From assembly GCA_958510825.1 (NCBI GenBank), contig OY294048.1:31399026-31463025 (forward strand): a stretch of 64,000 nt of DNA. Direction: 5' to 3'. The notes under the pieces were generated by a model. It had not been told where the DNA came from. It worked only from the letters and a program-made list of their open reading frames with translations, and searched no databases. The position numbers and the translations under genes are program-made. The number at the start of each line of letters is the position of its first letter. Positions within the stretch are counted from its first letter, which is position 1. This document shows positions 10,044 through 43,267 of the stretch, in pieces. This stretch comes from Brachypterus glaber. Its lineage: Eukaryota; Arthropoda; Insecta; Coleoptera; Kateretidae.

Positions 10044-10164
10044 ATGAAGTTAGCGTTATTAGTACTAGTTTTTTTGTTAGTTAATATTCTCTGCATTGAT
10101 CACATAGCAGGAAAAAGAAGAGGGAAAGGAAAGAGCTTGTTACATGCCATTAATGCGGGGGCAG
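10044..10164 (+). CDS. Small secreted cationic peptide, gene 1, exon 1
   Basis: I do not recognise a named family. The exon encodes 40 residues and ends in phase 1. Residues 1-18 form a signal peptide (MKLALLVLVFLL..) with a strongly hydrophobic core. Residues 24-30 are a basic cluster (KRRGKGK), followed by SLLHAINAGA. The donor is gcag/GTAATA at 10165. Joined to the exon at 20754-20809 it gives a 58-residue product, probably about 35 residues after signal removal: basic N-terminal half, hydrophobic Gly/Ile-rich C-terminal half. That layout resembles linear amphipathic antimicrobial peptides, but the role is inference. Unspliced, the frame ends at TAA 10185-10187 after a short tail GNTVCAK. 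Support comes from a paralogue with the same TATA spacing, signal peptide, intron phase and last-exon length. Confidence 0.75.
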
Positions 10165-10375
10165 GTAATACCGTGTGTGCCAAATAAGTCATATCACTTG
10201 TTTTTTGTCTCCGCTTTAAAATTAAAACCAGTCCATATAATATAGTTAAACACCAAAGTGTTTCTCACATAATTGTTCTATTTTGCCTTGCTAGTGTATT
10301 TTTTTAAATAAGTTACTTAAAATGTATTTTTAACGTTTTTTGCCATCATAATTAAGTATAATTCTAAGCTGGATA

Positions 10376-13300
10376 GGGGAGGTCGGGGTCAGATGTAACA
10401 ATTTTGCTTTAAAATTTATTCTTTGGATACCAAACTTGATGCATGAAAGGATTAAGTTATCCTCCTTCATTATACGCTGGTATTTTAATTAAATTTGTTT
10501 TAATAATAAACAAACAACTAGATTTTGCGGTGTCTGTTTGTTGTTACATCCGTCCCCGATGATGGGGCAATTGTAACAAGGGGTAGTTACAATTTTAACA
10601 ATTTTTATAGCAAAATGTTTATAAGAAATTAAATAAAATTTGTTTAACAGCTTTATTATTATTAAAGATATAAAATTTTAAATGCTTTATTATGTGTTAT
10701 ATTAAAAAAATAATCAAGAAAATAAAAAAACTTAAAATCGTAAATAAAACAAAAAATAATTAAAAGTTTGAATTAAGAACCAAGGGCTTATCCAGGATTT
10801 TTTTTCGGGGGGCAGGGGGGCACCACACTGTTTTTCTAAACATTAAAAATAATAAAAATTTACGCCCCAGGCAAAAATTTCTGCACATTTTTTTTAAACT
10901 CTGTTATTTTCTGACGGTTTTAAATGTAGTTAGACTTTTCAAGTTTTAAAAACATAAATGAAAAAAAAAATAAGAAAGAACTAGCGCCGTAGGCGAAAAA
11001 TTTTACAATTGCGGTTTATTTGAATTTGAAAACAGTCGTATAGATTTATCTTAACGTGGAAATATCAAAAAAATAAGCAATAAAAAGGAAAAAAACATGG
11101 TACTTACAGTAAGTTACGTTTCCTTCGTTAAAATACAACAATTAAGGATTGAAATATTAAATACATAATACATAATGGGTATTCGAAATACAATAAAATA
11201 AACAGTCTCCAGAATAGGAGAGGTATGAGTAGTTGTCTACATCTAGAAATAGATGGCGCACAAGTCTACATCAATCTAATGGCTATTTTCCTTTTGCGAG
11301 TGAAGTCTAAAAACGTTTTCTTAATCAGCGTGCAGAGTTGACTCTTGGTACTGAAGAGGGCCAGCAGCCCAAAACTGTCAGTCTACCAATATCACTCTGT
11401 ACGATGATTAGAAAATAGATTGATGGAATAATAAATTAATATTTTTATAATTTTGTTTAAAATTAAAAATTTCTGTCCTTACTAATTCTACGTCTAACCA
11501 CCCGTTAGTAGTACTATGTGCTTGAGACAAAAGTCTTCAACTTGCTACCATTCAAAGTCTCCAGAATAGGAGAGGTATGAGTAGTTGTCTACATCTAGAA
11601 GCACAAGTCTACATCAATCTAATGGCTATATTCCGTTTGCGAGTAAAGTCTAAAAACGTTTTCTTAATCAGCGTGCAGAGTTGACTCTTTCGGATTGTTG
11701 ACAGATACAGGTACGGGGGGGATTTTTTTTTGTGGTTTAAACTAAAAATTCGACTTGTAAAGAAAACAAAGCTAGTTATATATCCTATTAATATTTTTTT
11801 TTTAATGAAGAGTTTACTTTTTATTTTAGAAATAAGCGGAATATATGCTATATTTAAGTCTTCTATATCTGTCCTTTTATTTACACTATTATTAAAGATT
11901 TTAATACAAATCATTTCTTGAAAAATACGTTTTTTCTCGATTGACTGTCTACTTAAAATCTGTAAATTTTGAAAATTAAACTTATGGCGATTATTAAAAG
12001 AATGTTAAGTTAAAGCAGTTTTTTGGTGGTTTTCTCTAATTTTTAGGTAACATGTTTATTGTCGATTGACTGTCTACTTAAAATCTGTAAATTTTCAAAA
12101 TTAAACATGGCGATTATTAAAAGAATGTTGAGTTAAAGCAGTTTTTTGGTGGTTTTCTCTAATTTTTTTGCTGTCAAAAAAAAAAATTAGAGAAAACCCC
12201 CAAAAAACTGCTTTAACTCAACATTCTTTTATTAATCACCATAAGTTTAATTTTGAAAATGTACAGATTTTAAGTAGACAGTCAATCGAAAAAAAAACGT
12301 GTTTTTCAAGAAATGATTTGTATTAAAAAATTTAATAATAGTGTAAATAAAATGACAGTTATAGAAGACTTAAATATAGTATATTTTCGGCTTATTTCAA
12401 AAATAAAAAGTAAACTCTAGTTTTCATTAAAAAAAAATAATAGGATATATAATTTAGCTTTGGTTTCTTTAACTAAAACTAAAAAGTCAAATTTTTAGTT
12501 TAAACCACAAAAAATATCGCCCCCCGTACCTGTATCTGTCAACAATCCGAAATTTCCAGTATAGGTTTGTATAGCACTGGTACACGACTTTAAATTTCTT
12601 ATCTGGATATGTTTGTTTATTTTCTTGTATTTCGAATACCCATTATGTATTATATATTTATTATTTCAATCCTTATTTGTTATATTTTAATGAAGGAAAC
12701 GTAACTTACTGTAAGTACCATATTTTTTACCTTTTTATTGCTTATTCTTTTGATATTTCCACGTTAAGATAAATCTTTCTTCTTATACGAGGTGTTATTA
12801 AATTAAACCGTATTTTAAATGTTTCTATTTCTATGTTTAGATTATATTGCATAGTTTAATATAATTAATCAACGCCTTTTTTTGTCTGCAAAATAATTTT
12901 AAACATGTTTTTATTATATAAAAAATATATCATATTTATTATTTTATTAACTTAAACTTATATTGTTTTCTTTCTGGATCTTTGAATTGTTAAAAAGTTA
13001 AAACATAATTGTTACATTTCTTGTAGTGTGCCTTTTGAAGAAGTTGAAATAAAGCCAACGAAACGTCGGCAGTTTTTGTAAAAAAACGTTTTTTAGTATA
13101 AATAACCCTAATCCAGCCATCTACTATCTAATATTATTGTTGGGTTACCAAACCAAGCTTACATGATAACATTGTTACAATTGTACCTCTACGATTTGTT
13201 ACCATCTTCCCCGATCTGTATTGAGTTAAAAAATTAATTTTACCGCCATTCATTATAAACATAACCTTACAATAAATACACCCTAGTAATGCTCTGGCAA

Positions 13301-13499
13301 TATTATAGTAAAAATTAAGAATAATTTTGATGTATTTTGACTTTTTAGTAAGTTAGTGTTCACTTATTAAACTACACTGACATATGTTGCTGCGCAAGCT
13401 TCAAATCATGCACTAGTGGCAGATGATTTAAAAGTTGTTTAGCACAATTTTTTAGCCCTGTTACAATTGATTCGCGTTACAATTGACCCCGACCTCCCC
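10376..13499. mobile_element. 3.1-kb element with GGGGAGGTCGGGGTC termini in the gene 1 intron
   Basis: TA at 10374-10375 and 13500-13501. The left end ggggaggtcggggtc is the inverse of the right end gaccccgacctcccc. Motifs tgttacaa/ttgtaaca recur near both ends (about 10395, 10545, 10570, 13165, 13460, 13475). The gene 2 intron has the uninterrupted site (rc of about 42930-42955: aagctgggta then tagatgaata), confirming the TA duplication. The interior is a mosaic of further inverted and direct repeats. Confidence 0.8.
11030..12800. repeat. Nested inverted repeats inside the 3.1-kb element
   Basis: The arm 11030-11205 (..gtggaaatatc.., ..gtaagttacgtttcctt..) is inverted at about 12600-12790. 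Inside it a second inverted pair, 11693-11935 and about 12295-12550, carries ORF shadows such as 11609-11914. At 11939-12170 a block beginning cgattgactgtctactt is directly repeated. A segment starting agtctccagaataggagagg occurs at about 11206 and again at about 11556. Confidence 0.7.
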
Positions 13500-13501
13500 T
13501 A

Positions 13502-14359
13502 CCGATGAACACCATTTTTTTTAAGGCAAACAAGTCCCATAGATTATTTCAAGAATTATTAAAATAGCTACAATGAAGCTGCTACATGGATAGATATGTT
13601 GTTTAGTTTAGGGAGCGTGCACAAATTACGTAAGATTTTTGGGGGTTGTCAAAAACCTTACGATGTCTTACAAGAGGGGAAGGGAGCGAAAAAAATCTAT
13701 TTTTTCTTACTAAAACGGCCTGAAATCTATTTTTTAAATTAGGTTTTAACTGGAAATTAATAATAAAAAGTTGCATTTTTATTTAATACAATACAGTTTA
13801 CAAGGGTTTTATGCTCAACTTTATTTTAATGTTTTGTTACATATTTTTTGATGCTAAATCCAAATCCGTCAATAAAAAATTTTCGTTGGTTCAGTTTTCA
13901 AGATAATCAACCCTTAAGATTTTATAAGGGGACGTCTAGAGAAATCATATATTTTCGTTTAATATTTACAAAAATTGATATTTGGAGGTTTTGAGACTAA
14001 AAATTAATTTGATATTAAAAAAAAACTATCCTTATCTCTTAATGGGGTAGAACCATCCCTTTTATACATTTTTTTAAGTAATCTGATAAGAGCTGGTACC
14101 TGGGGTTTTTCGTTTGGACTTAAACCCAATTTTTTTTTTAATAAAAATAAATTTTATTATTTATAAATAAATACATTTTTTGAATATTATACCCTATTTG
14201 TATAAAGTAGGCTTTCGGAGAAATTTAAAAACATAGTAGGTAGGTATATATATTTTTTTTAACTTAGAAAAACATTGCACCTGATTAAAATCGTGTTGTG
14301 CTTCTAATTTGTCAAAGAATTATTATATGAGTATTAATGTTTTATTATTTATATTTATT
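13502..14359. other. Intronic DNA, partly shared with gene 2 intron
   Basis: 13502-13570 continues the homology with the gene 2 intron (aacaagtcccat.. / aaaacaagtcccat-type block). 13610-13710 holds an inverted phrase (ttacgtaagatttttggggg / aaaaaccttacg) typical of dispersed repeats. No gene seen. Confidence 0.5.
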
Positions 14360-15045
14360 TTTTTTATACATACATATTTTTTAAAGACCGTTCAAATCTT
14401 TAAAACATTTAAATTAGGGTTATACTTTCAGATAGAAGAAGGTAGAATTTTATTGCTCTGGCGCATATAGGAATAAATAGATATTTGTTTTTATAAAATC
14501 GGTAGTTTTTTTATAGAACAGTGCAGTGTTATTTTTTTTATTGATGAAGGAATTAGGTTGTATAATTTTGGACCTGTATAGGCAAGAGATTTTTTTATTA
14601 GTGTTTTAACAGGTTGAGGTAAGATTAAATTGTAATTCAGTTTTGATCTTGTTTCATGTAAATGTTGAATGTAACACAATAGATTCCTATTTTTTTGGAC
14701 AAATTTAACAGCGTTAATTATATAAAGCCCCTTTATATCTAGCATATTGGTCTGAGAAAATAACTCTGTTGAGGAAAATAATTTGTTTTTAAAGAAAATA
14801 ACTTTTAAGATATATTTTTGCGTGGTGTTTAAGTTTTCAAAATGTGTGTTATATGTATTTCCCCAAATGCAAATTCCATATGTTATAATTGATTGAACCA
14901 GTGAAATATAGATATTTCGTAGAATATATTCAGAAAATAGGTCTCTTATATTATAAAAAATATAAATAAATTTTCTAATCTTTGAAATGACATATGTGAC
15001 ATGTTGTTTCCATTTTAGGAATGGGTCAATACTTACACCCGTATT

Positions 15046-16072
15046 TTATTTGATCAGTTTTTTGTATTTTTTGTTATTATGTAATTTGATTGTTTGAAAG
15101 TTTGGCTGGTTTACTATTGATTCAGAGAAGGTCATAAAGTATGTTTTATTTTCATTTAATGATAGGAGATTATCATCTAACCACTCTTTTATTCTAGCCA
15201 TACCTAATTCTACCTCCCTAATAACGTCTTCCCATGAAAAACCTTCAAACACTAGCACTGTATCGTCCGCATAGGAAATGATATGTCCTTTAAGATTAAC
15301 GTCAAAAATGTCATTTAGATAGATAAGAAATAACTAAGGACCTAAAACTGTACCTTGTGGTTGCCACACTTCACCTCCGCAGACTCACTGTACTTATCAT
15401 CTATATTGACGTGCTGTTGACGTTGAAATAAGTAGCTTTAAATAAATCGTACACTACCCCCCTTATTTCGATGTCATTCAGTTTTTTTAATAATTTATTA
15501 TGAGGTAAGGTATCAAATGCTTCTTGTGGGTCAAGAAAGATTGCTAATAGTTTTTTGTTTTTATTTAATGCTTTGTACAGTGAGTCTGTGAGATGAAATA
15601 TGGCATCCTGAGTAGAAGTTTTTTTCTGAAAGCCAAATTGAAATTTAGATATAATTTTATTTCTTTTAAGGTGGGCACAAAGTCGTGTTTTTATACATTT
15701 TACGAATATTTTTGAGAAATTATTTAAAATTGATATCGATCGATAATTATTCATTTTACTTGTTTCCCCTCCTTTGTGTACAGGACGAATTACGGCAACT
15801 TTCAGCTTTTCAGGAAAAATCCCTTGTTCGAATGATGAATTTATAATATAGGTTAATGGCGCAGCAATCATGCTTTTGACAGGTTTTATAATTTTAACTG
15901 ATACTTTATCTATGCCGCTAGAACTATTATTTTTTAAAGAATCTATTTCTTTTAGTATTTCTAAATTACTTACAGGGGCCATAAACATTGAATATTGTAT
16001 ATTTTTATTTTTTTGTAGCCTTTTTGTTTTATTTTTGCGTATTTGAATGTTTTTTTTGTATGTTTCCACCAA
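15046..16072 (-). pseudogene. CR1-like reverse transcriptase remnant
   Basis: Two frames together make an RT domain. The first (16072-15401) has SSGIDKVSVKII, PVHKGG, NYRSISILNNFSKI, FGFQKKTSTQDA and the A-box region LDPQEAFDTLPH (the usual D-x-x-K/x-AFD, here DPQEAFD). After a frameshift near 15390 a degraded GVPQGTVLGP block follows, then SYADDTVLV (about 15280-15260) and LSLNENKTYFM. The catalytic YADD is present, but the protein is broken by the frameshift and a stop after TVLGP, so it is inactive as it stands. Confidence 0.85.
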
Positions 16073-16149
16073 CGTTTGTGAAATAAGAGTTAAATTGTTC
16101 AGCTACTTCTATGGGATTAGATACTTTTTTATTTTCGTTATGTAGAATA

Positions 16150-16882
16150 TCTTAGTGTTTTTTACCCCGGTTTTTTCTATTCGTTGATGTTTTTTTGGGA
16201 AGAGGGTTGAAATTAATAATACTCAAACTATTTCCTTAAATCGTAACGTTTCGAGGGTGGTTTCCCTCGTCCTCAGACCTTTAATATGAGAGAAAAAAAC
16301 AATATTAAAATTATATATGAACAAGTTTCTGTATAACCAAAATTTTGTTTTTGTTGGGTTAACCAAAAATGATTAACAACTACTTACACAAATTTAAACC
16401 CAGTTTGAATACACGTTAGACACATACATATATACACAATATAATAAATAAAACATTATTAAGGACTACACAATACTTTTACAGTTATTAATAATAATTT
16501 ATTACACAAAACGTATCAGCTGATTTAATTGTCTGTCAGCTGATACGTTTTGTGTAATAAATTATTATTAATAACTGTAAAAGTATTGTGTAGTCCTTAA
16601 TAATGTTTTATTTATTATATTGTGTAAATATGTATGTGTCTAACGTGTATTCAAACTGGGTTTAAATTTGTGTAAGTAGTTGTTAATGATTTTTGGTTAA
16701 CCCAACAAAAACAAAATTTTGGTTATACAGAAACTTGTTCATATATAATTTTAATATTGTTTTTTTCTCTCATATTAAAGGTCTGAGGACGAGGGAAACC
16801 ACTCTCGAAACGTTACGATTTAAGGAAATAGTTTGAGTATTATTAATTTCAACCCTCTTCCCAAAAAAACATCAACGAATAT
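16150..16882. mobile_element. Palindromic insertion with 13-bp target duplication and hammerhead-like motif (Penelope-like?)
   Basis: The target duplication gttatgtagaata lies at 16137-16149 and 16883-16895. The insert is an almost perfect palindrome (16179-16880, arms about 340 bp, loop about 16 bp near 16525) preceded by an unpaired 29-base extension. Each arm contains ctgaggacgaggga..cctcgaaacg (16783-16813 +; 16244-16276 -). This resembles a hammerhead core: CUGANGA, a stem-loop, then GAAAC. Penelope-like elements are known for inverted terminal repeats, a short extension, variable target duplications and hammerheads, but no RT is present here, so the assignment is inference. Confidence 0.6.
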
Positions 16883-17930
16883 GTTATGTAGAATAATATT
16901 TTCATTTTTTTCTTTTTTGTTATTTATTGCTGTTTTAATAGTTTTCCAAATTTTTTTAGCATCATTATTTGCTTTATGTAATAATTGTTCATAATATTGC
17001 TTATTTTCTATTTTAATTATATTTGTTACATGTTTTCTGTACCTCTTGTATTCATTCCAAAGGTTATTGTTGTTTTTATTTTTTAAACATTTTCTTTTTA
17101 AGTTTTCTCTTTTATTTTATTAGGGAAGGACTTATCCATGGTTTTAGTTTAGTAACCGTTTTTATTTGTTTATTTATTGTTGCATTATTTATATATTTTT
17201 GTATTAAATTTATAAAATTTTTATAGGCTAAATTTACATCATTAGAATTATATACAGTGTCCCAAGATTCGTCCCCTAATAACTCCGCAAGAAGTTCAAA
17301 ATTTGTATCTTTTTTAATTATTATTTCATTATTTTTTTGTGTTTAGTTTATTTTGTAATTTAGTTTTTATGTTTAAAATTGTGCTAAGATGATCTGTAAC
17401 ATTTTCCCCAATTATTCCCTGTAAAGTAAAATTTTTATTATTACATTTAACAAAATAATGGTCAATGCAGCTTTCCGAGTCTACAGTTATACGTGTATGT
17501 GAATTTATCTAACTTTTAAATCCCATAGAATTTAAGATATTTAGGTAAGTGGTAGAATGTGTGTTTAGTTTGTCCAAAATATGAATGTTTATGTCCCCTG
17601 TAAATATATTTATGTTACTATCAGAATGTTCTTCTAATATTAAACTTAAATCCTGGAGGGATAGTTCAATATTAGACCCATGGGGTCTGTATAAAGCAAT
17701 AATATTGTACGTAGTTAAATTTTACGACAGAAAAAGTTACCTCGTTAATTTTTTTGTGACTTGTTGTACATCATTTATATTTTTTAAAATATAATTACAC
17801 AGCCATCATTTTGGTTGAACTTAGTTTTATTATAATTTATCGAAAAATATTGGGGGCATTCAACATTCCACAGTGTAATATTTAGTGTTTTCATTATTTT
17901 CATATTTAAAAAATTCTGCCTTCTTCCCTT

Positions 17931-18207
17931 TAGGGAGTACAACCACCCCTATTTTTATAGCTTTATATTGCAGGGGCAGCAAGAAATTCCAACTTTTTTG
18001 TTTTGAACTACCCTAGTATACATGCCAAACCTCGTCGCTCTAGCCTTAAGGGTACCAATTAAAACTTTATTTTTAGTACAATTTTGAAGGGCTGTAGCTC
18101 CCCTAGGGTTCATTTCCGGACCAATCTTTATTGAAACTTTTTTTAAATTTTTTTGGATGTAGAATCACCTCTTAAATTTTGGCATGCCAGTTACTGATCA
18201 CCCTGTA
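17931..18207. mobile_element. One arm of a fold-back element of the stacked-module type
   Basis: Contains agggctgtagctcccctagg, then ggatgtagaatcacctctta and ends gatcaccctgta. This is the same module order as the right arms of the 1.2-kb palindromes at 20912, 27769 and 62198, but diverged. No opposite arm was found. Confidence 0.5.
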
Positions 18208-18289
18208 TTTTTCAAAAAGGAAAAATTCAATAAAATTTTTATTGTTTAAAATTATAAAATAATATTCAGTACTTTGTTTAAACATATGT

Positions 18290-18480
18290 TTTTTTTTGCA
18301 TTTACAACGTCCGTGGACAAGAAACATTGCAATGCATTGCCTTCAAACTGCAGTCGCACCAAATATAGTATAGTATAGTCTAGAACACGTATGGAATAGT
18401 CATTCTGGGCTCGAATGCCAAACTTTCAGCTCTATTCCATACCATTAATATACTATTCTTTACCATAGCATGACAATGAC
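18290..18480. repeat. Dispersed repeat shared with 61250-61440
   Basis: Both copies have tgcatttacaa..gtc, then cagtcg, tatagtcta, aacacgtatggaatagtcatt and a region of ccatacc / ctatac. The copy at 61.3 kb has a CpG-rich hairpin in place of the AT-rich centre here. Confidence 0.6.
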
Positions 18481-18539
18481 ATTCTTTTCTCGAAATTTTT
18501 TTTAACAATTTCTTTTTCTCATATTTATGGTCCGTAAAT

Positions 18540-20705
18540 ACACTGAGAAACCTCTCTATGGAGCTTTCTTCGTCAGATAAACATGGCGCCCGACCTTCAT
18601 CTCTTCGATTTTGCTCAAATTCGGCACATCCTCATCAAATAGGGTCTCGATCACTAGATCGAAAGGATTTTGCTAGAAAACGACTAGTTTTGGAGATATT
18701 AGATATTTTCAACCTTTTTTAAAATTCCAAAAACCTGATTTACATAACTCTAAATAGGGTAAAACCCCCAATCGTTGGCACTCCGCTAATTATTGGCACT
18801 GGAGTGATATTTTCGTTTATATAAAAAAAAATTCCATTGATACCTTAATTTAACTATTTTTTTTATGAAGTGGCAATATTGCTTAATATTATACTTTAAA
18901 TGCGAAAAACATATTTTTCCCCCCCCTGGGCAGTAGAGTCTTACTAGTTTCGTGTGAACTACGTAAGTGTGAATTTTTAAGGTTTGTGCTAAGGAAGTGC
19001 TTTAAGTAGAAGGTTAGTAAAAGACTTTTATTGACGGACTAACTATTTTTTCTCGATAATTTTAGTAAGCATATGCATTCTACTTATTAATTAGCCTTAA
19101 AAACTTTATTTTTCTTTACATTTTTATTTAATTTCGACGGTGCCAACAATTGGTATACAAAATTAAACTAAATTATAATTATTGGCACAGGTGCCAATAA
19201 TTAGCTTCTTTAGTAAAAATCCTATTCCAATTATTGTCAACCAGTTAAAGTTCTAAATTAATGGAATCAATAAAATAAAATTGAATAGATTTATTACTTG
19301 TACGGTTAAATACGTATTGCCACATCTGATATAAGACAAAACCAAAACCGTATTTTAAAGCGGGTGGGCTATTATACAAAAGATACAGTTTTAGCTAAAA
19401 ACCTATTTCAAATAAATGCGTTCTAAACAGCGTTTAATGAAAAACTTACAGTTTTTCCTCAATACATATCTACGTATATACATTTGACACTTAATTTTTC
19501 TCTATAAACTTAATTTTTCTTTAGAATTTAATTTTTTATCACGGTGCCCATAATAGGTGTCCAAATTATATTAAGCTCCTATTATTGGCACATGTTTATT
19601 GTATGCAAAACTTGTGCATCAAAATTAGTCTAAAAGCATAATAATTCTTTTAAATAAGTGTACCTAGGTAACTAGGTATTATTTTATAGATACAATTAGT
19701 ATTAAGTAATTAATATTTTAACTTTAATATAAAGATATGTAGAATTTTGTAGTTCAAAAATAAATTTGAGTTTTTGTTTACAGCCTTTAGTTAATATGTA
19801 TAGAACTGCAATATTCCAATTTAAATATTTTATTTTGATACTAAAATGTTTATTATTCAACAAAAAGTAGGTACTCAGTAATTTTTTTCCATTACTTTAA
19901 AGCAAAAATTAGGTGCCAATAATAGGAAAATTTGGATGCCAATTATTAGCAAAAAGGTGCCAATAATACGAAATTGTGTATTCTTGTAATTAATTAAAAA
20001 AATTCTTTAATATTACTAAGATATCAGTTTAAATTTTTTATAATATATAAAATAGAATAACTATCAAATCATGTAAAATAATTTATTCTTGATAACATGA
20101 AATATTTAATAAGTTATAATGAAATATATGTGAAAAATTTCTTAAAGTGCCAATAATTGGGGGTTTTACCCTATCAGGACTTGATTAAAAGATATCAAAA
20201 TCAGAAAATTATACCAGCAGGTAGATTATGTTCTTAAATAAAACTTTGCTTAAAGAAGCATATCTCTATCTCATCACACAAAAAAGATAAAGGTTCTGTA
20301 TTATTTAAAAAAATAACCCTGTTTATAAGTCAACTGATAAAAAAATAAAAAAAATAAAAAAAAATAAATTTAACGAGTTGCATCTGGTAGGCCGCCATAT
20401 TAAAATGAAATTGGTGGTAAAATTTTGTCTTGGTTAAGACTAAAATTTAATTTTCTTTCTATATCTGGCAAAATTATCTTTTTATCTTTTACACAAGTCC
20501 TGATATTTAGATTAATGTAAATCATGTTTGTACATTTTAAAAAACGTCAAAAATGAGGCACCCTAATATCTCCAAAACTAGTCGTTTTCTAGCAGAATCC
20601 TTTCGATCTAGTGATTTAGACCCTATTTGATGAGGATGTGCCAAATTTGAGCAAAATAGGGGAGATGAAGGTTGGGCATCTCCGCGGCAATTACTGAGAG
20701 TATTT
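18540..20705. mobile_element. Fold-back element split by a nested element
   Basis: Arms 18570-18720 and about 20545-20690 are inverse of each other (atcctcatcaaatagggtct; aacgactagttttggagata). The space between is mostly the nested element 18757-20171. Ends are approximate because the terminal bases do not pair well. Confidence 0.65.
18757..20171. mobile_element. 1.4-kb element with GGGTAAAACCCCC termini and internal TGCCAATAATT repeats
   Basis: TA at 18755-18756 and 20172-20173. Left gggtaaaacccccaat and right attgggggttttaccc are inverse. The core tgccaataatt/aattattggca appears about ten times inside, in both orientations (near 18775, 18790, 19140, 19180, 19193, 19575, 19915, 19937, 19955 and 20150). 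No ORF of note. Confidence 0.8.
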
Positions 20706-20753
20706 TGCTCCTTTTATGAATTGACTATTGACAATTGATATGTTTAATTTCAG

Positions 20754-20809
20754 ATTTATTATCAATTGGAGCAGATATAATGGGAATTATTAAACCAAAT
20801 GGGAAATAA
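20754..20809 (+). CDS. Small secreted cationic peptide, gene 1, exon 2
   Basis: The acceptor tttaatttCAG precedes the exon. With the leftover G from exon 1 the codons read D, then LLSIGADIMGIIKPNGK and TAA. It is 56 nt long, exactly as in gene 2, and hydrophobic with a short basic/polar tail. Identification rests on the matching exon at 40726-40781 (-), which has the same acceptor, phase and length, and on matching 3' UTRs (catccagttgc.., gaccaaaaaccaccatataa, cccatatcagtt). The exon is far from exon 1 only because of insertions in the intron. Confidence 0.7.
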
Positions 20810-20911
20810 ATTTTGAAGAAGCGCCATTTTCTTGCATCCAGTTGCTTGCAATAGACCAAAAACCACCATATAATAATATAAAAATATGGCCCATATCAGT
20901 TCCAAACTATA

Positions 20912-22109
20912 CACGGTGTATTTGAAATAGGGTCGGAAATTTTAACTGATGATTCTACATCATAAAATATGACAAAAAGTTCCTATAAACATATGTCTAA
21001 AAATGCGTCATAAGGGAGCTACGCCCCTTTGAAATTAGCTAAAAAAATCGGTTTTTATTTAATAACTCAGGAACCCTTTGAGATATATCAACGAGGTTTT
21101 GCACGTCAACTAATCCTACCAAGGCCCGTTTTTATGTGTTATTTTCATCTACTTATTTCAACCAGGGGTGTGCGAAACGGGGGGGGCTTATCAGTTTTTT
21201 GTCCCAAACTTTTTTCTGTGTAACTTTTTTGCAATTTTATTTTTGAAACTTGATTCCTCAGGTCAAAATACATAAAAAAGGTACTCTTGTTTTAATACTG
21301 TAGGATTAACCGCTTTCGAGAAAAATTCATTTGAAGGTGAAATTCCACGGTTCGAGAACGAAAAATTAAATACTAAAATGTTGAAAACCAAAATTTTAAT
21401 GATGCAATGTTATTCTACATCAAAAACTAAGAAAAAAAGTTTCCATACATGTAGGTCGAAAAAAGGATTTTAAAGCTACCATAGCGCTTTAAAAATGGTG
21501 CATATTTAGGAGACCATAGCTCCATTAGGATTGATTTTTGGAAGTACCTGTATATGAGGTTTTTTTCTTAGTTTTTAATGTAGATTTGCCCTGCATCAAT
21601 AAAATTTTGGTTTTCAACATTTTAGTATTTAATTTTTCGTCCTCGAACCGTAGAATTTCACCTTCAAATGAATTTTTCTCGAAAACGGTTAATCCTACAG
21701 TATTACAACAAGAGTACCTTTTTTATGTATTTTGACCTGAGAAATTATATTTCAAAAATAAAATTTCAAAAAAGTTACACAGAACAAAGTTTGGGACAAA
21801 AAACTGATAAGCCCTCCCCGTTTCGCACACCCCTGGTTGAAATTATTATTATTATTATTATTAAATAAGTACATGAAAATAACACATAAAAACGGGCCTT
21901 GGTAGGATTAGTTGACGTGCAAAACCTCTTTGATATATCTCAAAGGGTTCCTGAGTTATTAAATAAAAACCGATTTTTTTAGCCACTTTCAAAGCGGCGT
22001 AGCTCCCTTATGACGCATTTTTAGACATATGTTTATAGGAACTTTTTGTCATATTTTATGATGTAGAATCATCAGTTAAAATTTCCGACCCTATTTCAAA
22101 TACACCGTG
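20912..22109. mobile_element. 1.2-kb palindromic element, copy A, inserted in the gene 1 3' UTR
   Basis: TA at 20910-20911 and 22110-22111. Ends cacggtgtatttgaaatagg / ctatttcaaatacaccgtg. Arms about 500 bp, unpaired centre about 21410-21570. Arm modules in order: gattctacat, gggagctacgcccc, aactcaggaaccctttgag, ggtgtgcgaaacgggg, ttttttgtcccaaacttttt, aaaaggtactcttgt, and taggattaaccg. The ORFs inside are palindrome artefacts. The paralogous 3' UTR at about 40640 has no insertion. Confidence 0.9.
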
Positions 22110-22152
22110 TATAACGTACAAAAAAAATGTAATGTAAACATTTATGTATTTT

Positions 22153-22158
22153 AATAAA
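22153..22158 (+). terminator. Polyadenylation signal of peptide gene 1
   Basis: AATAAA in tatttTAATAAAAGaatttaagat, matched by tatttcAATAAAAGcatttaagat in gene 2. It lies beyond the fold-back insertion, so the full gene 1 3' UTR would contain the palindrome. Confidence 0.65.
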
Positions 22159-22265
22159 AGAATTTAAGATTATCATTTATTATGTTTTATTACACAACAC
22201 ATGAAGATGTGTAATGCTTCAGCAGACTAACATCTTTGCAATGTAAAAAAATTAATATGTAATTA

Positions 22266-23783: not shown

Positions 23784-23785
23784 TA

Positions 23786-24852: not shown

Positions 24853-24877
24853 TATAATAATAATAATAATAATAATA

Positions 24878-24965: not shown

Positions 24966-24966
<1 letters not shown>

Positions 24967-27609: not shown

Positions 27610-27768
27610 TCATTTTTGTTATATTCTCGTCCTTTTTTAACGGGTTTCATCCTACTATTATTTTTTTTGGTTTCAAAAATTATCGACCCTGGTCTATTAC
27701 CTATTCAAGACTCTGCTGGGATATTTTAAAATAAATTGAACCATTTATTACAAGTTCGTTTGACTATA

Positions 27769-28948
27769 CAGGGTGTATTTGAAATAGCGTAGGAAATTTT
27801 AACAGGTGATTCTACATGATAAAATATGACAAAAAGTTCCTATAAATATATGTCTAAAAATGCGCCATAAGGGAGCTACGCCCCTTTGAAAGTGGCTAAA
27901 AAAATCGGTTTTTATTTAATAACTCAGGAACCCTTTGAGATATATCAACGAGGTTTTGCACGTCAACTAATCCTACCAAAGCCCGTTTTTATGTGTTATT
28001 TTCATGTACTTATTTCAACCAGAGGTGTGCGAAACGGGGGGGGGGGGGCTTATCAGTTTTTTGTCCCAAACTTTTTTCTGTGTAACTTTTTTGCAATTTT
28101 ATTTTTGAAATATGATTCCTCAGGTCAAAATACATAAAAAAGGTACTCTTGTTGTATTACTGTAGGATTAACCGTTTTCGAGAAAAATTCATTTGAAGGT
28201 GAAATTCCACGGTTCGAGGACGAAAAATTAAATACTAAAATGTTGAAAACCAAAATTTTAATGATGCAGGGCGAATGTACATTAAAAACTAAGAAAAAAA
28301 CCTCATATACAGGTACTTCCAAAAATCAATCCTAATGGAGCTATGGTCTCCTAAATATGCACCATTTTTAAAGGGCTATGGTAGCTTTAAAAGCGTTTTT
28401 TCGACCTACATGTATCGAAACTTTTTTTCTTAGTTTTTGATGTAGAATAACACTTCATCATTAAAATTTTGGTTTTCGACATTTTAGTATTTAATTTTTC
28501 GTCCTCGAACCGTGAAATTTCACCTTCAAATGAACTTTTCTCGAAAACGGTTAATCCTACAGTATTACAACAAAAGTACCTTTTATATGTATTTTGACTT
28601 GAGGAATCATATTTCAAAAATAAAATTGCAAAAAAGTTACACAGAAAAAAGTTTGGGACAAAAAACTGATAAGGCCCCCCCGTTTCGCACACCCCTGGTT
28701 TAAATAAGTACGTGAAAATGATATACAAAGATGGGCCTTATTAGGATTAATTCACGTGCAAAACCTCGTTAATATATCACAAAGGGTTCCTGAGTTATTA
28801 AATAAAAACCGATTTTTTTAGCCATTTTCAAAGGGGCGTAGCTCCCTTATGACCCATTTTTAGACATATGTTTATAGGAACTTTTTTTCATATTTTATCA
28901 TGTAGAATCAACTGTTAAAATTTCCTACGCTATTTCAAATACACCCTG
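27769..28948. mobile_element. 1.2-kb palindromic element, copy B
   Basis: TA at 27767-27768 and 28949-28950. Ends cagggtgtatttgaaatagc / gctatttcaaatacaccctg. Same modules as copies A and C with high similarity. Loop near 28270-28440. ORFs such as 28387-28728 are reads through the palindrome. Confidence 0.9.
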
Positions 28949-29393
28949 TATTGATATTTTACTAGAAAATTGACTAATGAAGATATTATACACATACTTT
29001 TAATTTCGTTTGACCAATACATTTCAAGTAAAAGAAGTAAACACACAAAAAAAACAGTAGAATTATCTAAAGATGTTTAAAAGTTACCAATCAAATAAAA
29101 AAAAAGGTTAAGGGGGGTGAAATTTTTTTGGATAATCAAAAAATATTTTTTTTTAGTTTTCTGTTAGAAAATAAGAAATATAAATAAATTAATAGTATAA
29201 AAACATTTTTAAGAACAAGCTTTTATTTAAGTGTACTAAACAGAGGAAAATAAACTTTCAAGTAAATCAAACCCATCATTTTGTTACATTATACAATTTT
29301 ATATCATATAAAATTGCATAATGTAACAACATACAGCCTGTTCCAGAACTCGCGTACCGAAATTTGAGGGTATATTAAAAACCCTCTGGAAAA

Positions 29394-30180: not shown

Positions 30181-30188
30181 GAAGCATG

Positions 30189-31258: not shown

Positions 31259-31866
31259 GAAAGTTTTGATATTTTTTTATGACATTAATAAATATTTATG
31301 TCACATTAATAACCATGTCAACCTACAGAATATGTACCTGCAATAATTAAATTTGCTTCCATAGCTACAAATTCAACCTTTAATGGTAATTTATAATCAG
31401 CAACAGTATTGGTCCACTTAAAGCGTTCTTATTTTTGAATTGAACGAAGATGGATTTTTTTTGAAATTTTTTTCATATTTTCCAGAGGGTTTTTAATATA
31501 CCCTCAAATTTCGGTTCGCGAGTTCTGGAACAGGCTGTATATAAAATTTTATAATGTAACAAAATGATGGGTTTGATTTACTTGAAAGTTTATTTTCTTC
31601 TTTTTAGTGCACTTAAATAAAAGCTTGTTCTTAAAAATGTTTTTTTTACTATTAATTTATTTTTCTTTTTTTAGTTGTCAAAATTTTGTAGGATACAATT
31701 TTTTTTCAAATAGGACCGACAGAATCATAAGCTTGCTTCAGGGGGCCGAAATGCAGAGGCTGCCCTGTGTAGTATTCAATGCATGGTAATCCTTACATAT
31801 ATATTTGTTTATGATTGACTGAAGAAATTTTGATAAATAAAAAAAAGGTCTCACATTTAAAAAATT

Positions 31867-33555
31867 TTAATTTTAGCGGTGGGGAAGTTGGGGGTAAATT
31901 TTATATAAAATTGTATTGTCATCAGAGATGAGAATGTGTACCGAATTTCAGCTCTACGTTTATTTTAAGTGGCTGAAACACAGAGGGGGTGAAACACAGA
32001 GGGGGTAAACTTATACAAATGTAAAATTTATTTTAAAATTTGGATCTGGATGAGTATGTAACCTAATTTTAGTTTTAAATTATCTCATGTGGGTAAAGAA
32101 TGGATTTTTTTTTAATTTTAGGGGTGGGGGATTGGGGGAAAATTTTTATATAAAATTGTTTTGTCAGCCGAGTTAAGTATGTGTACCAAATTTTAGCTTT
32201 CTAAGTATATTCTAAGTGGGTGAAACAGAGAGGGGGGTTAACTTAGCCTTATACGCGTATGGGGGGTGATGGAGAGACTAGGGGGGGATGTAAAATTTAT
32301 TGTAAAATTTTATTATCACTAAATGAGTATGTAACCTAATTTTAGTTTTAAATTATCTCATGTGGGTAAAGAATGGATTTTTTTTTAATTTTAGGGGTGG
32401 GGGATTGGGGGAAAATTTTTATATAAAATTTTTTTGTCAGCCGAGTTAAGTATGTGTACCAAATTTAAGCTTTCTAAGTATATTCTAAGTGGGTGAAACA
32501 GAGAGGGGGTTAACTTAGCCTTATACGCGTATGGGGGGTGATGGAGAGACTAGGGGGGGATGTAAAATTTATTGTAAAATTTTATTATCACTAAATGAGT
32601 ATGTAACCTAATTTTAGTTTTAAATTATCTCAAGTGGGTAAAGAATGGATTTTTTTTAATTTTAGGGGTGGGGGATTGGGGGAAAATTTTTATATAAAAT
32701 TGTTTTGTCAGCCGAGTTAAGTATGTGTACCAAATTTTAGCTTTCTAAGTATATTCTAAGTATATTCTAAGTGGGTGAAACAGAGAGTGGGTTAACTTAG
32801 CCTTATACGCGTATGGGGGGTGATGGAGAGACGAGGGGGGATGTAAAATTTATTGTAAAATTTTATTATCACTAAATGAGTATGTAACCTAATGTTAGTT
32901 TTAAATTATCTCATGTGGGTAAAGAATGGATTTTTTTTTTAATTTTAGGGGTGGGGGATTGGGGGAAAATTTTTATATAAAATTTTTTTGTCAGCCGAGT
33001 TAAGTATGTGTACTAAATTTTAGCTTTCTAAGTATATTCTAAGTGGGTGAAACAGAGAGGGGGTTAACTTAGCCTTATACGCGTATGGGGGGTGATGGAG
33101 AGACTAGGGGGGGATGTAAAATTTATTGTAAAATTTTATTATCACTAAATGAGTATGTAACCTAATTTTAGTTTTAAATTATCTCAAGTGGGTAAAGAAT
33201 GGATTTTTTTTAATTTTAGGGGTGGGGGATTGGGGGAAAATTTTTATATAAAATTGTTTTGTCAGCCGAGTTAAGTATGTGTACCAAATTTTAGCTTTCT
33301 AAGTTTATTCTAAGTGGGTGAAACAGAGAGTGGGTTAACTTAGCCTTATACGCGTATGGGGGGTGATGGAGAGACGAGGGGGGATGTAAAATTTATTGTA
33401 AAATTTTATTATCACTAAATGAGTATGTAACCTAATTTTAGTTTTAAATTGTCTTGTGTGGGTAGAAAATGGATTTATTAAACGTTAAATTGTATAGTAG
33501 AGTTAAGCATGTGTACCAAATTTTAGCTTTCTAAGTATATTTTAAGTGGTCGAAA
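31867..33555. repeat. 273-bp tandem satellite, 5 full units plus partial ends
   Basis: Unit starts (gaatggattt) at 32098, 32371, 32643, 32924 and 33197, with a last partial unit at 33467 and a diverged unit before 32098. Lengths are 273, 272, 281, 273 and 270; the 281-bp unit carries an 11-bp internal duplication of tatattctaag. Each unit has G-rich stretches (ggggtgggggattgggggaa; ggggggtgatggagagac) and gccttatacgcgtatgg. Units 2 and 4, and 3 and 5, share diagnostic differences, so the higher-order period is a dimer. Confidence 0.9.
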
Positions 33556-33559
33556 ATGC

Positions 33560-34018
33560 CCTTGGAAGATTTTCCATAAACAAATAAATAAACAAGTAAG
33601 TTGTAAGTTAAATAAAAGTTTGTAAAAAGTTATTTGGATACATTTCAAGGTCGAGAACTGGTTTAAATAGAGTGAGACAGTTGCGGCTACGGCTTCTCAT
33701 GTAGACTGAGATATTTTTGTTTTTTTTTTTTTTTTGAAGAATTTCGGAGATAAAAGCTTTAAACGCGTTTTTCTCGAAACAGCAGTAGGTGATTTTAAAA
33801 ATCTACTAAAACCGATCTACTTCAAATTTTAACTGCTTACTCTTCGTACGTGTCCCAACCGCAGGAACTAGAGTTATAGTTATTTTTAAACAATTATAAA
33901 AGTTATAAACAATTAAAGTTAAAAAAAAGGTCGAAAAATTCTAAAGTCCGCCATTTTGTTTTTTTTTTTCGTAAAAAAATATAATTTTCGTTCCAGCGAT
34001 AACCAGTAACATAATTTA
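33560..34018. other. AT-rich spacer
   Basis: No gene seen. It has phrases of the fold-back type (cgtttttctcgaaac, 33770) but no matching arm. Confidence 0.5.
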
Positions 34019-38331: not shown

Positions 38332-38591
38332 CACAGTTACACAAAAAAAAATGTCAAGCACTCTTTTGTAGACCATCGTATTTCTATTCTGGGGAGATCA
38401 GTCCGAATTTGAGGTTTAAATAGCACCTCATCTGATTAGTTTTGAAGATATCCTCAAAAAACGAATAACTCGAAAATAAGGTTATCTCGAAAACTAGTCG
38501 TATGAGGTGCTATTTTGAACACAATTCGAAATCATCACCTCAAAATACAAGGTGTCCAAAAGAGTACTTGACCTTTTTTTGTGTGGCTGTG
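38332..38591. mobile_element. 260-bp MITE nested in the transposon, TTA target duplication
   Basis: cacagttacacaaaaaaaaa faces ttttttgtgtggctgtg, with TTA on both sides (38329-38331, 38592-38594). Inner pairs aatagcacctcat / atgaggtgctatt and ctattttgaacacaattcg. A 3-bp TTA duplication would suit PIF/Harbinger-type MITEs; a TA reading is also possible. Confidence 0.65.
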
Positions 38592-38688
38592 TTATTTATT
38601 GAAATACAACCTTACATTAACATATTTTTTAAAAAAAAATTTAAACAAAACATAACAAAACATAAGAAATGAAAAGAAAATTAATGAA

Positions 38689-39673
38689 TTAAATGCTCAA
38701 AATTGTTAACATTTCAGGAGTTATTTCTGCAAAGGCTTGCCTTATACGGTCTTGCATATTTTCTGGAGTTGTTGGTATTTCCCTGAAAACTCTCTCCTTT
38801 ACAAAACCCCAGAGAAAAAAATCTAGCGGGGTTAGGTCGGGGGATCTTGCTGGCCATGGTATTGTACCTCCTCTGCCTATCCATATGTTGAAGTTATTAT
38901 CAAGATATTCCCTTATTTCCCAGCGTAATGAGGAGGAGCCCCGTCCTGCATGAACACCATATTTTGCCTCAAATTAACGGGAACATCATCTAAATAATGG
39001 TTTAAATGATTTTGTAAAAAATCTATGTACATGTATCTGTTTAAATGCCCTTTGAAAAAATGAGGTCCTATAACTTGTCCTCCTAGGATCCCACCCCACA
39101 CATTTAGGGACCACACCCTTTGATGATCCACCTGTCTTACCCAATGGGGGTTTCCAACAGCCCAATAGTGCATGTTGTGTCTGTTGACAACCCCCGAACT
39201 TTTAAATGTAGATTCATCACTATAAAGGATGATACTGTTAAAGTCCTCATTAATGTTTCTTCTTATCATCTCATTACAAAAGTTTACCCTATTATCATAG
39301 TCATTTCCATGCAACTCTTGTGTCAGGTTCAATTTGTATGGGTGGAATTTTTCTATTTTCAAAATTTTCTTTACAGAGGTACATGATACATTAGTTTCAT
39401 TAGCTATGGCTTTGGTACTAATTTGGGGACTTTCCAGTACGGAATTGCGAACTTGTTCAATGTTATCTGGATTGCCAGTAACAGGCCGTCTGCGCACACG
39501 CTTTCCATAATGTAAATTTCCGGTATCTTTAAAAAGTTGCACAACATGTCTGATTGAGGTAAAGCTGAAGGTACCGGGAAAGCGATTTTCCAAAAGCCTG
39601 GAGGTTTCTCGAAGTGATTTTCCAGTTTCTCCGTACGTATAAATAATTTTTTTTTATCTTCTAACGATAACAT
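38689..39673 (-). pseudogene. Transposase (helix-turn-helix + DDE), two frameshifts
   Basis: Start MLSLEDKKK at 39673. The continuation (IIYTYGETGKSLRETSRLLENRFPG) needs a one-base shift in the A run near 39652. Then ISTKAIANETNVSCTSVKKIL, the second DNA-binding helix block, and the catalytic core: LYSDESTF, FMQDGAPPHY, and after a frameshift near 38926 REYLDNNF..WIGRGG and PARSPDLTPLDFFLWGF; stop at 38689. About 327 codons, the normal size for this family. Second and third aspartates are about 35 residues apart. Only two single-base lesions separate it from an open frame, so the family was recently active. Distant relative of the gene at 30189-31258. Confidence 0.88.
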
Positions 39674-40591
39674 ATTTTTAAATAAATCATTTATTTATTA
39701 AAGACGTTTAGTGTCAATTCATAGATAAGATGTCAATTTAAGACGTTTAAAATTGCGGTGCATCGCATGCTTTATTTTTATTGTTGATTTTTGTTTATAA
39801 ACAGTAAAGAATACTTAAAATTTACAATTTTTTAAACCCGTTTTTTTTTAATCAAAAATATACGCTATGAATTAAAAAAATATTAATCAATAAATTAAAA
39901 TTAATAAACTTTTAAATTTTCGCGTTTTTAGCTAACCTTTATTTGGTAAATTCATCTTTGTATGGCTGTACCTCTAAAACAAAAGGAAGTGGAGGACTTT
40001 TGTTTTCATGCAGTTATAGGTTTATTGATCTAATATGCATGAAAAAAAAATTATATCGATACCTCTTATGATAACGCCAGAAATCATCTGATTTATCTTA
40101 GATGAACCTCCCTGTATAATATACATGTATAGGTCTACAATTTCAGACTAGGGCCCGTTAACATTTTTACACCATGTGGATACAAGGGTAGAAAATGGAT
40201 AAAAAAAGCTAGTAAAATTATGGATTTTTTGAGGTTTAAGGTTCTTGTACCAACTCTAAACGACTTGTGATCCACCTTAAATTTTATGTAAGCAATAGTC
40301 ACAAATTAGGCAACAATTTTAGTTGATAAAAGTTTAAGATTTCAAAATTTGCTAATTTATAAATTTAAAATTAAAGAAGCTCGTAAAATGGCTAAGTTTA
40401 AAAACTTTAGGACCACTGTGCTGTGCCTTAACGTATTTCGATTGACTTCAAATTTTGGATAATTCATATTACCATAAAGGGCAACAAATTTTTATGTAGG
40501 TAGCATTCGTATATTCAATTTGAATTTTCGCGACCACCCTAATCTTCATGTGTTATGTAATAAAACATAATAAATAATAATCTTAAATGCT

Positions 40592-40597
40592 TTTATT
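40592..40597 (-). terminator. Polyadenylation signal of peptide gene 2
   Basis: AATAAA on the minus strand about 130 bp after the gene 2 stop codon, in a context conserved with 22153-22158 of gene 1. Confidence 0.7.
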
Positions 40598-40725
40598 GAA
40601 ATACATAATTTTTGTATACATTATACGGTTTGAAACTGATATGGGCCATTTTATAAGATTATATGGTGGTTTTTGGTCTAGGTTTTTGGTCTACCGCAGG
40701 CAACTGGATAACGTTACTTTAAAAT

Positions 40726-40781
40726 TTAATTGCCTTTGTGAGGCATTAAATCTACTCCTACCATCATTGCTCCTCCTAAAA
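40726..40781 (-). CDS. Small secreted cationic peptide, gene 2, exon 2
   Basis: Minus strand, after acceptor tttaatttCAG. With the leftover G of exon 1 it reads V, then LGGAMMVGVDLMPHKGN and TAA. It is 56 nt, same length and phase as gene 1 exon 2. The sequence is a hydrophobic, Gly/Met/Val-rich stretch ending in a short basic/polar tail. The downstream UTR matches gene 1 through gaccaaaaaccaccatataa, cccatatcagtt and the AATAAA block. Confidence 0.72.
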
Positions 40782-41423
40782 CTGAAATTAAACATTACAT
40801 AAATTAGACAATAGTCAAGTCATTCACGGTGCAAACTACTTTCTGTGATTGCTATATATTCAATCCAGTTAAACAACAAAGGAGGCCGATATTAAGCCAT
40901 CACGTTGGTAGCATTTCTTCCACTTCTTATATTGGAAGCAATGATTAGCCACGGTTCACCTGGGCGATTTTAAATAAAAATTTCGTGGACCCCTACATTT
41001 TTTGGACTAAAACATAACTGATGACATTAGAAATCAATTCCCATTTGAAAGAAAATCGTAAAAGATACACTTAGTGCGTTTTATTTGTAGACTATTTCAA
41101 ATGTTGTTTCTGCACTAAGCGACTTTCTAAAAAGAGTTAATTTATAAAAATATGATTGCTTGAATCATTTATATGACACAATATCGCGTTATTTATTGTA
41201 CTGACAAACGCATTCAAATTTTGCTATGAAAGTTGATGGAATAGAGACAGAACAGATAAACAGAACTTTACCTGTAAAATGACAATGCTTTTTACGTGTA
41301 CTTTCGATATGTAATTTAATTTTCATTTGCATTGGTTTTTTTATTATCAGATAATATTTCAAAACTAAATTTGAAGCCTTCACACTAAGTTCAAAGTCTC
41401 GGTGCATTTCTGAGGGGTGTTTT

Positions 41424-42108
41424 CCGAACTTGCGGCAAACTTTAGTTTTTCTTTATATTCTTATTATTTATGTAATAACCAACGATTTAAGAGCAACATT
41501 AAAAAAATCTATCGGTTAGTTTTTTTTAATTTAGATTTTTTTTCATAAAAATCTGCACCTGTTTAATTATTTGTCTATATCTCAGCTATTTCTAATTATG
41601 TAATAAAAATATTATTAAAAATAAAATAAAGGCTGCTTAATTTTCTACAAAAAAAAAAGTAAATACCATTTTTTTTTAATCTTTTGCCCTTTTGTCACAA
41701 TACGCCATTCAAGTTTAAAGTAAAACAAAAAAGTATAAATTAATCTTTATATTTATAAAAAATTATCTAAGGAGGCTTATTATATTATTATTTTAATAAA
41801 TGTGAAGATGAACTTTTTTGTTTTACTTTAAACTTTAATCGAGTATTGTGAAAAAACGGCAAAAGAATTAAAAAAAATGGTATTTACTTTTTTGTAGAAA
41901 ATTAGGCAATCTTTGTTTTATTTATAATAATATTTTTATTATAATTAGAAATAGCCGAGATATAGACAAATAATTGAATAGGTGAAGATTTTTATAAAAA
42001 AATATAAATAAAAAAAACTAACTGATAGATTTTTTAAATTTTGCTCTTAAATCCTTGGTTACTCATAAATAACAAGAATATAAAAAAAAACTAAAGTTCG
42101 CGGCACTT
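41424..42108. mobile_element. Fold-back in the gene 2 intron
   Basis: ccgaacttgcggcaaacttt.. is inverted as ..aaagttcgcggca. Inner arms pair through ggttattacataaataat-type and attttctacaaaaaa-type blocks; centre near 41770. The phrase gctgttttccgaacttg is repeated just outside at 42127. Boundaries approximate. Confidence 0.65.
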
Positions 42109-42159
42109 CACGGTACAATTCTAAGGGCTGTTTTCCGAACTTGACTCGAACTTTAGTCA

Positions 42160-42263
42160 TTATAATGATTCGTTAAAATTATTGACTTTAGGAGATGCTT
42201 CTTTGCCGGCACAGCCGATGGCCTCTGAAAACTGTCTTAGGTCTGGCACTATAAGCAGTTTCA
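42160..42263 (-). other. Short GC-richer ORF in the gene 2 intron (unassigned)
   Basis: Minus-strand ATG at 42263 opens 34 codons (MKLLIVPDLRQFSEAIGCAG..) to TAA 42160-42162. GC content is clearly above the flanks, and a cttatAG acceptor-like site lies inside the first codons. From that site the frame is compatible with the phase of exon 1. It might be a cryptic or alternative exon, or a transposon scrap. No counterpart was found in gene 1. Confidence 0.25.
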
Positions 42264-43152
42264 TATAATTAATACTAATTAATTATTATTATTAATTTTG
42301 GAAACGTTCTTTAAACAATCAAAAAGTCCAAACCCTTCTTTTAAAAATCTAGTTTTTGAAAATTTATGTAAACATCTTGTTATAGTTATACTTTACGTTT
42401 AATTAATAGAAGGGTTTTAATTTTAAATAGTTGTTTTTTATATTATTTTATTGACTTAGTGCTCTTTACATGTAAGCCGACGTCCTGGGCCTACAAGTAA
42501 AAGGCACTAAGTCCAAAGCTTTTTTCAAATTTAGTTGAATTAAACTACTTCAATTTTTCTTTATTTACCTGCAAATGATACATTATTATGTCTAAACATG
42601 TCAAAACCATGTTTTTGGACTTAGTGCTCTTTACTTTACCCCTGAAAATATTTAAAAATTAAAAAAAAACGTATTTTTTATCTCTTATCATTTAAATTTG
42701 AAATACACAATAAAATAATTTTGGTCTCGTTTTTTTCGTTTGGTAGCATAGTGCGGTAGAGAAAAATCCAGACGTATAGGCTAAACTAGGTTCAGGTTCG
42801 GCTTTAGCGTGCGAAAATATGTACATATCCATGGCGTCGATCACTTTTGTTGTTTTGTGGGCCTGTTTAATTCTTAAAATATCCCATGGGACTTGTTCGG
42901 TCAACAGTGTTAGCCTAATTTTTTTTTTGTATTCATCTATACCCAGCTTATAATTACATATAATTTTAATGACAAAAAGGTGATAATTAAATTGTAATTT
43001 ATTTTAAAAAAATACACTAGCATGGCAAAATCGAACACTTATGTGAGAACACCCTTATATACACGTCGCTGTTTGACTATATGGACTGGTTTTAATTTTA
43101 AAGCAGAGCCAAAAAACATGTGATATGACTTATTTGGCACACACAGTATTAC

Positions 43153-43267
43153 CTGGCAACACTTTTCCCAAGGCACCTAATACCTTCCTCTTTCTTCCTC
43201 CTAACGCGGAATCAATGCATAGAATATTAATTAACAAAAAAACTAGTACTAATAATGCTAACTTCAT
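43153..43267 (-). CDS. Small secreted cationic peptide, gene 2, exon 1
   Basis: Minus strand ATG at 43267; 38 codons plus one base, donor CCAG/GTAATA. Signal peptide MKLALLVLVFLLIN.. differs from gene 1 by a single residue in the first 19. After it comes a basic cluster GGRKRK and VLGALGKVLP. Joined to 40726-40781 it gives 56 residues: basic head, then a long hydrophobic Gly-rich segment. This is compatible with a membrane-active host-defence peptide, but the family is not recognised and the role is inference. The region between signal and intron has diverged much more from gene 1 than the signal peptide, the DNA-level UTR or the promoter. Reading through the donor would add GNTVCAK, as in gene 1. 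Confidence 0.77.

Follow-up and report, generated by a model that had tools for sequence, protein, structure and literature searches.

A clustered family of two-exon genes for small, putatively secreted cationic peptides with near-constant signal exons and divergent mature regions in the beetle Brachypterus glaber

A stretch of 64,000 nucleotides from the kateretid beetle Brachypterus glaber (assembly GCA_958510825.1, contig OY294048.1, positions 31,399,026 to 31,463,025 of the forward strand; the whole stretch is hereafter the window) carries two oppositely oriented genes, A and B. These belong to what is probably a cluster of duplicated two-exon genes coding for small, secreted and rapidly diversifying cationic peptides, for which host defence by membrane-directed peptides is the most likely role. 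We are much surer of the gene family itself, whose anatomy, copy number, clustering, divergence pattern, charge and lack of homologues in the searches made are matters of direct observation, than we are of its function. The family is new but belongs to a known kind, namely that of the hypervariable secreted defence peptides. A first-pass annotation of the window had recognized A and B as two inverted paralogues of an unrecognized short secreted cationic peptide, each with a hidden last exon; their paralogy and character stand, but the genome holds seven such signal exons rather than two.

Family size, genomic distribution and gene structure

A protein search of the 648-Mb genome with exon 1 of gene A yielded seven first-look candidates, all seven of which were confirmed at E<=10, none with an internal stop, and a whole-genome DNA search with the exon-1 region returned 12 pieces falling on the same seven loci. 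The duplicates are clustered, with five of the seven signal exons (A, B, C, D and E) lying within ~102 kb of contig C11 (31,340,273-31,442,292) and the other two, F and G, on contig C797. Genes D and E each sit, as the sole peptide gene, in one copy of a tandem duplicate of ~19 kb (C11:31351994-31389326) with 97.8-99.0% identity in its four main blocks, a range that leaves out an 8,000-bp row of 100% identity arising from the overlap of two query pieces. For gene G (C797:20444), which encodes a short payload rich in basic residues and proline, exon 1 alone was found and the contig stops 1.8 kb later; as no exon 2 was found before that end, the family may be incompletely assembled. When the block in the 3' untranslated region (3'UTR) of gene B was used as a genome query, it retrieved 8 pieces, namely two in A, one each in B, C, D, E and F, and a 51-bp match on contig C2. 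The last was considered as an eighth member and rejected: it is AT-rich, and neither a signal exon nor an intron edge could be made out convincingly in the 20 kb around it.

The anatomy first proposed for A and B is confirmed in all its parts: the coordinates, TATA box, signal peptide, phase-1 donor and acceptor, 56-nt last exon and AATAAA block (Table 1). In both genes TATATATA starts 56 nt before the ATG, the donor reads CAG/GTAATA and the acceptor TTTAATTTCAG; the AATAAA block is likewise common to the two, and in A it is displaced by a 1.2-kb repeat inserted 98 nt past the stop codon. Two BLAST matches, consistent in order and strand, link the pair: one of 524 columns (79%, E 1e-120) spans the promoter, exon 1 and the intron start, and the other (70%, E 1e-18) the intron end, exon 2 and the 3'UTR. 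The intron of A aligns with that of B over ~211 nt at its start and ~67 nt at its end and not over the remainder; a few stretches further in can be aligned with D and F. Homology between the introns of the members is found at their edges and in a few inner stretches.

Gene models for C-F were placed by the same landmarks, with all models chosen at conserved intron edges. In six of the seven members (A, B, C, D, E and F) an exon 2 of matching phase can be read, and hence the comparison supports the hidden last exon. All six readable models have a GT-AG, phase-1 intron, with the length of exon 1 equal to 1 mod 3 and that of exon 2 to 2 mod 3, and their spliced products measure 58 (A), 56 (B), 61 (C), 65 (D), 65 (E) and 55 (F) residues. 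The product of E is that of D with one residue changed, their second exons differing at two sites, with one amino-acid change. The earlier statement that exon 2 keeps its length and character holds for A and B, and in length also for D and E (56 nt each), but fails for C (65 nt) and for F (38 nt), whose product is moreover proline-rich. An unspliced reading with GNTVCAK at its end (GNTVYAK in C) was tried as an alternative product and rejected, its stop being lost in D and E and absent in F.

Upstream, the seven promoters are equally uniform: a TATA box is present in 7/7, with AGATAAG just upstream of it in six and AGATTAG in A. By the signal cleavage-site rule, the glycine at residue 23 and the isoleucine, alanine, threonine or serine at -3 suggest cleavage after residue 23 in A-E; the intron positions within the mature region given below assume a signal of 23 residues, and of 20 in F.

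Divergence of the mature exons

The identity of genes A and B is 52/56 from the TATA box to the ATG and 54/57 in the signal codons, and falls to 27/58 in the mature part of exon 1; it then recovers to 23/24 over the 24 nt past the donor, 151/178 in the part of the intron that follows and 50/64 at the intron end, before dropping to 23/56 in exon 2 and rising again to 74/95 in the 3'UTR. The promoter, signal, intron edges and UTR that flank the mature exons are thus 78-96% identical, bearing out the claim of the first-pass annotation that the signal and UTRs are far better conserved than the mature region. Pooled, the mature exons match at 50/114 sites as opposed to 350/417 in the noncoding stretches that still align (Fisher p 1.8e-16, the sites not being independent). 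As judged from this alignment, neutral decay does not explain how the coding sequence of A and B would have diverged faster than their own intron; selection, local hypermutation and exon replacement are each possible sources of the mature-exon divergence.

A shuffle test on 4 of the 15 pairs, with 40 shuffles each, places the mature exon 1 of A/B at shuffle level (18/40 shuffles reach the observed similarity), and likewise that of A/F (21/40), while B/C and B/D are above it (0/40 and 1/40, respectively). In exon 2 the similarity stays at or close to shuffle level in all four pairs, with 32/40 shuffles reaching the observed value in A/B, 10/40 in B/C, 22/40 in B/D and 7/40 in A/F. Across 14 pairs, a pooling that omits D/E, identity descends from 0.94 in the signal through 0.75 upstream, 0.73 in the 3'UTR, 0.62 at the intron start and 0.59 at the intron end to 0.51 in mature exon 1 and 0.47 in exon 2.

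Properties of the mature peptides

The exon-1 part of the mature peptide is consistently basic, with a net charge of +5 in A, B, C and F and +6 in D, although the five payloads are not independent cases because B, C and D share ancestry; among random open 17-codon frames, 6.8% carry a charge of +5 or more. The exon-2 part has a net charge of 0 in A, B and C, +1 in D and +4 in F, and F counts 7 prolines among 23 residues. The products of A and F end in Gly-Lys, which may bear on C-terminal amidation. In the exon-1 segments, the best helical moment over 11 residues was reached by 46 of 2000 shuffles in C, 225 in D, 394 in B, 1093 in A and 1290 in F, and those of the five exon-2 segments are not above shuffles (720 to 1694 of 2000 reach them). 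The earlier suggestion of membrane-active linear peptides is weaker than first put: it draws on composition, and among the ten segments the helical moment is outstanding only in exon 1 of C and weakly so in D and B.

Relatives and comparable peptide systems

The six spliced products gave 81 candidates in a search of 5.8 billion proteins (sources including UniRef and nr), none at E<=10, and a search with A and B gave 3, none at E<=1; distant relatives may escape this search because it requires shared exact 5-residue words. Pfam yielded nothing credible, its one match, to one member at E 0.24, being taken as chance, and nor did PDB, with best E-values of 0.046 and 0.094. We also found no description of the family among the best-matching titles and abstracts of the open-licence literature. 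Gene annotation can easily miss short peptides whose coding sequence is divided by a long intron.

Cecropins resemble the family in being short, secreted, linear peptides with a basic N-terminal part, a hydrophobic C-terminal part and one intron in the mature region. This makes it conceivable that the beetle genes are divergent cecropins or moricins, the more so as, besides the basic first and the hydrophobic second half, Gly/Pro near the junction recalls the cecropin layout. We nevertheless consider this very improbable and reject membership in either family: 0/6 members match the Cecropin (PF00272) or Moricin (PF06451) profile at E<=10, and the genome has a cecropin of its own at C4:46466797-46469868 (31.9 vs a cut-off of 25 bits), which, judged by eye, consists of two exons whose intron lies in phase 0 behind 10 residues of the mature peptide, as opposed to phase 1 after 15-24 in the peptide family. 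Besides this gene, the genome search with PF00272 gave a below-cut-off match on C16 and none at the peptide cluster; the same search in 14 control genomes gave one match, below cut-off.

Amphibian skin-peptide precursors combine a conserved signal with a hypervariable payload and an acidic propeptide; the beetle family shares the first two features but shows no acidic propeptide. Moricins, a lepidopteran family, are linear and cationic like the beetle peptides but are set apart by the lack of any Pfam match. In Manduca, the promoter activity of moricin requires both NF-kB and GATA-1 factors (PMC5457402); the beetle promoters likewise have a GATA-type site, but no kB motifs were found within 800 bp of the C11 genes. 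Nearest in architecture are the myticalins of Mytilus, which the relevant passages of their description present as a hypervariable multigene family of linear cationic, Pro/Arg-rich peptides with a signal followed by the mature region, a phase-1 intron and pseudogenes (PMC5577615). Being linear, cationic and multigenic, with the same signal-plus-mature layout and intron phase, they resemble the beetle family; by the same passages they differ in being molluscan, in having three exons, the second of which holds the entire mature peptide, whereas the beetle intron splits the mature region, and in an acidic C-terminal extension after a dibasic site, which is not seen in the beetle peptides. The sections drawn on here from a study of Nasonia indicate that insect families of defence peptides in which genes are tandemly duplicated and intron phases conserved are themselves a known kind (PMC2853521), and amphibian skin-peptide families are likewise presented, in the portion cited, as an arsenal of secreted defence peptides (PMC3731216).

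Proposed mode of action and alternative explanations

We posit that a near-invariant cassette, comprising the GATA/TATA promoter, a 19-residue signal core, the phase-1 intron and the 3'UTR, would serve to secrete a payload that changes near-freely yet stays in frame. The N-terminal half of this payload remains basic (net +5 or +6), and in A-E its C-terminal half is short, hydrophobic and almost without charge. The peptides most likely act in host defence at a secretory surface such as the gut, a gland or the haemolymph, where the cationic half would bind anionic microbial surfaces and the hydrophobic half insert into or otherwise disturb the membrane; the proline-rich F may act differently. 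More tentatively, and as a possibility that we hold below an even chance, change may be focused on the mature exons alone, through diversifying selection, targeted hypermutation or exon replacement, in a 'fixed launcher, free payload' locus where one ancestral gene would have given rise, behind one promoter/signal cassette, both to the helix-type peptides of A-E with their hydrophobic tail and to a proline-rich basic peptide (F).

Several observations weigh against the proposed defensive role or the divergence pattern behind it. Inducible insect antimicrobial genes differ from the C11 genes in having kB-type motifs in their promoters: within 800 bp, the motif GGGRNNYYYY occurs in 0/5 C11 genes, while F and G have a single copy apiece, and the stricter GGGRWTYCH in 0/7 genes. 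Exon 2 has two aspartates in A and one in B, and the amphipathicity of the helix is not outstanding in A or F and hardly so in B. The contrast between A and B draws on those noncoding stretches that still align, and the wider pattern has exceptions: identity at the intron start exceeds that of mature exon 1 in 11/14 pairs (not in B/C, C/D and C/E), that at the intron end exceeds that of exon 2 in 9/14, with two ties and lower values in three (A/C, B/F and C/F), and that of the 3'UTR exceeds that of exon 2 in 13/14 (not in A/F). The mature exons, with dN of 0.60-1.41 and dS of 0.63-2.09 where defined, are saturated, and the synonymous/nonsynonymous comparison is therefore uninformative; dN exceeds dS in 4/10 pairs, with dS undefined in one, and in A/B the sign flips with the alignment used. 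Lastly, we infer transcription, cleavage after residue 23, the tissue, and antimicrobial or membrane activity alike.

Among the alternatives, the same anatomy might serve another conflict or signalling role, with the products acting as seminal-fluid, salivary, defensive-gland or symbiont-control peptides. A conserved signal with a variable payload is common to several such peptide classes; moreover, the TATA (7/7) and AGATAAG (6/7) elements, without a kB motif within 800 bp in all five C11 members, would be compatible with constitutive, tissue-specific expression. We still regard it as rather unlikely, as the cationic first half is kept by all five distinct payloads, which typifies membrane-directed peptides more than receptor ligands. 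That the genes are duplicates in decay or only recently dead, with mature exons under neutral drift, would agree with the shuffle-level similarity of those exons in A and B and with the 1.2-kb repeat in the 3'UTR of A, but it is improbable: these exons have diverged far more than the adjacent introns, which is not expected of neutral drift, and the 6/6 models, albeit chosen at conserved intron edges, are open, with GT-AG sites and length differences that keep the frame, in a window where only 8.2% of random 38-codon stretches are open. Least credible, to the point of being negligible, is that the supposed genes are a non-autonomous mobile element or some other repeat. The locus is indeed repeat-rich, with many long frames around it that look by eye like transposon proteins, and the first-pass annotation had itself raised a transposon family of hundreds of copies as the threat to its gene models. 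Yet the signal exons number seven in the genome, five of them clustered, and the 3' block is confined to the same genes but for the 51-bp piece; by comparison, a piece of the true repeat in the 3'UTR of A gave 1786 first-look candidates genome-wide, 40 of which, when scored, yielded 86 matches on many contigs.

The seven copies with a near-frozen signal and a free payload offer a clean system for telling selection, local hypermutation and exon replacement apart as the source of mature-exon divergence, and the six short products are open to direct synthesis and assay.

Genomic features of the window and its surroundings

Table 1. Positions of the elements of genes A and B in the window
Feature	Position	Strand	Remarks
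Gene A GATA-type site	9975..9981	+	AGATTAG here; from the seven-member promoter alignment
Gene A TATA box	9988..9995	+	56 nt before ATG
Gene A exon 1	10044..10164	+	Predicted signal peptide (residues 1-23) and basic N-terminal half of mature peptide
Gene A intron	10165..20753	+	10,589 nt, phase 1
Gene A exon 2	20754..20809	+	56 nt with stop; hydrophobic C-terminal half
Gene A 3'UTR, first part	20810..20907	+	74/95 identity to B
High-copy fold-back repeat in gene A 3'UTR	20908..22114	+	Outside the family
Gene A 3'UTR, second part	22130..22208	+	AATAAA ~22153-22158; 89% to B
Gene B GATA-type site AGATAAG	43330..43336	-	From the promoter alignment
Gene B TATA box	43316..43323	-	56 nt before ATG
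Gene B exon 1	43153..43267	-	
Gene B intron	40782..43152	-	2,371 nt, phase 1
Gene B exon 2	40726..40781	-	56 nt with stop
Gene B 3'UTR	40542..40725	-	AATAAA 40597-40592

The ~1.2-kb fold-back repeat recurs in the window at 27765-28951 and 62194-63370, in addition to its copy at 20908-22114, and the copies align with each other in both orientations at 87-96%. Between genes A and B, a tandem array with a 273-bp unit in 5.2 copies occupies 31865-33555 and coincides with a strong GC skew (0.44 over 32001-34000). Upstream of gene A, a ~1.36-kb inverted repeat pair of 96% identity lies at 4788-8613, and a tandem array with a 206-bp unit occupies 6100-6712. Across the surrounding 204 kb, many long open frames look, by eye, like mobile-element proteins or simple repeats. 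Among contigs C15-C19, C16 measures 43.5 Mb, and the others carry matches to the fold-back repeat at Mb-scale positions. The mitochondrial COX1 of the genome shows 89-95% identity to at least 120 matches, those listed being beetles, mostly cucujiform and in part rove beetles, and on this evidence the source is a beetle that is probably cucujiform. The best of these COX1 matches had pointed to a lepturine longhorn, a reading dropped because a tree of the 120 did not group the query there (support 0.37 for its position); the tree does not settle the family. Elsewhere in the assembly, the first 200 bases of contigs C1 and C10 consist of a CCAAACGAAA / TTGACGAAACG-type satellite, which differs from TTAGG, the telomere repeat of insects.

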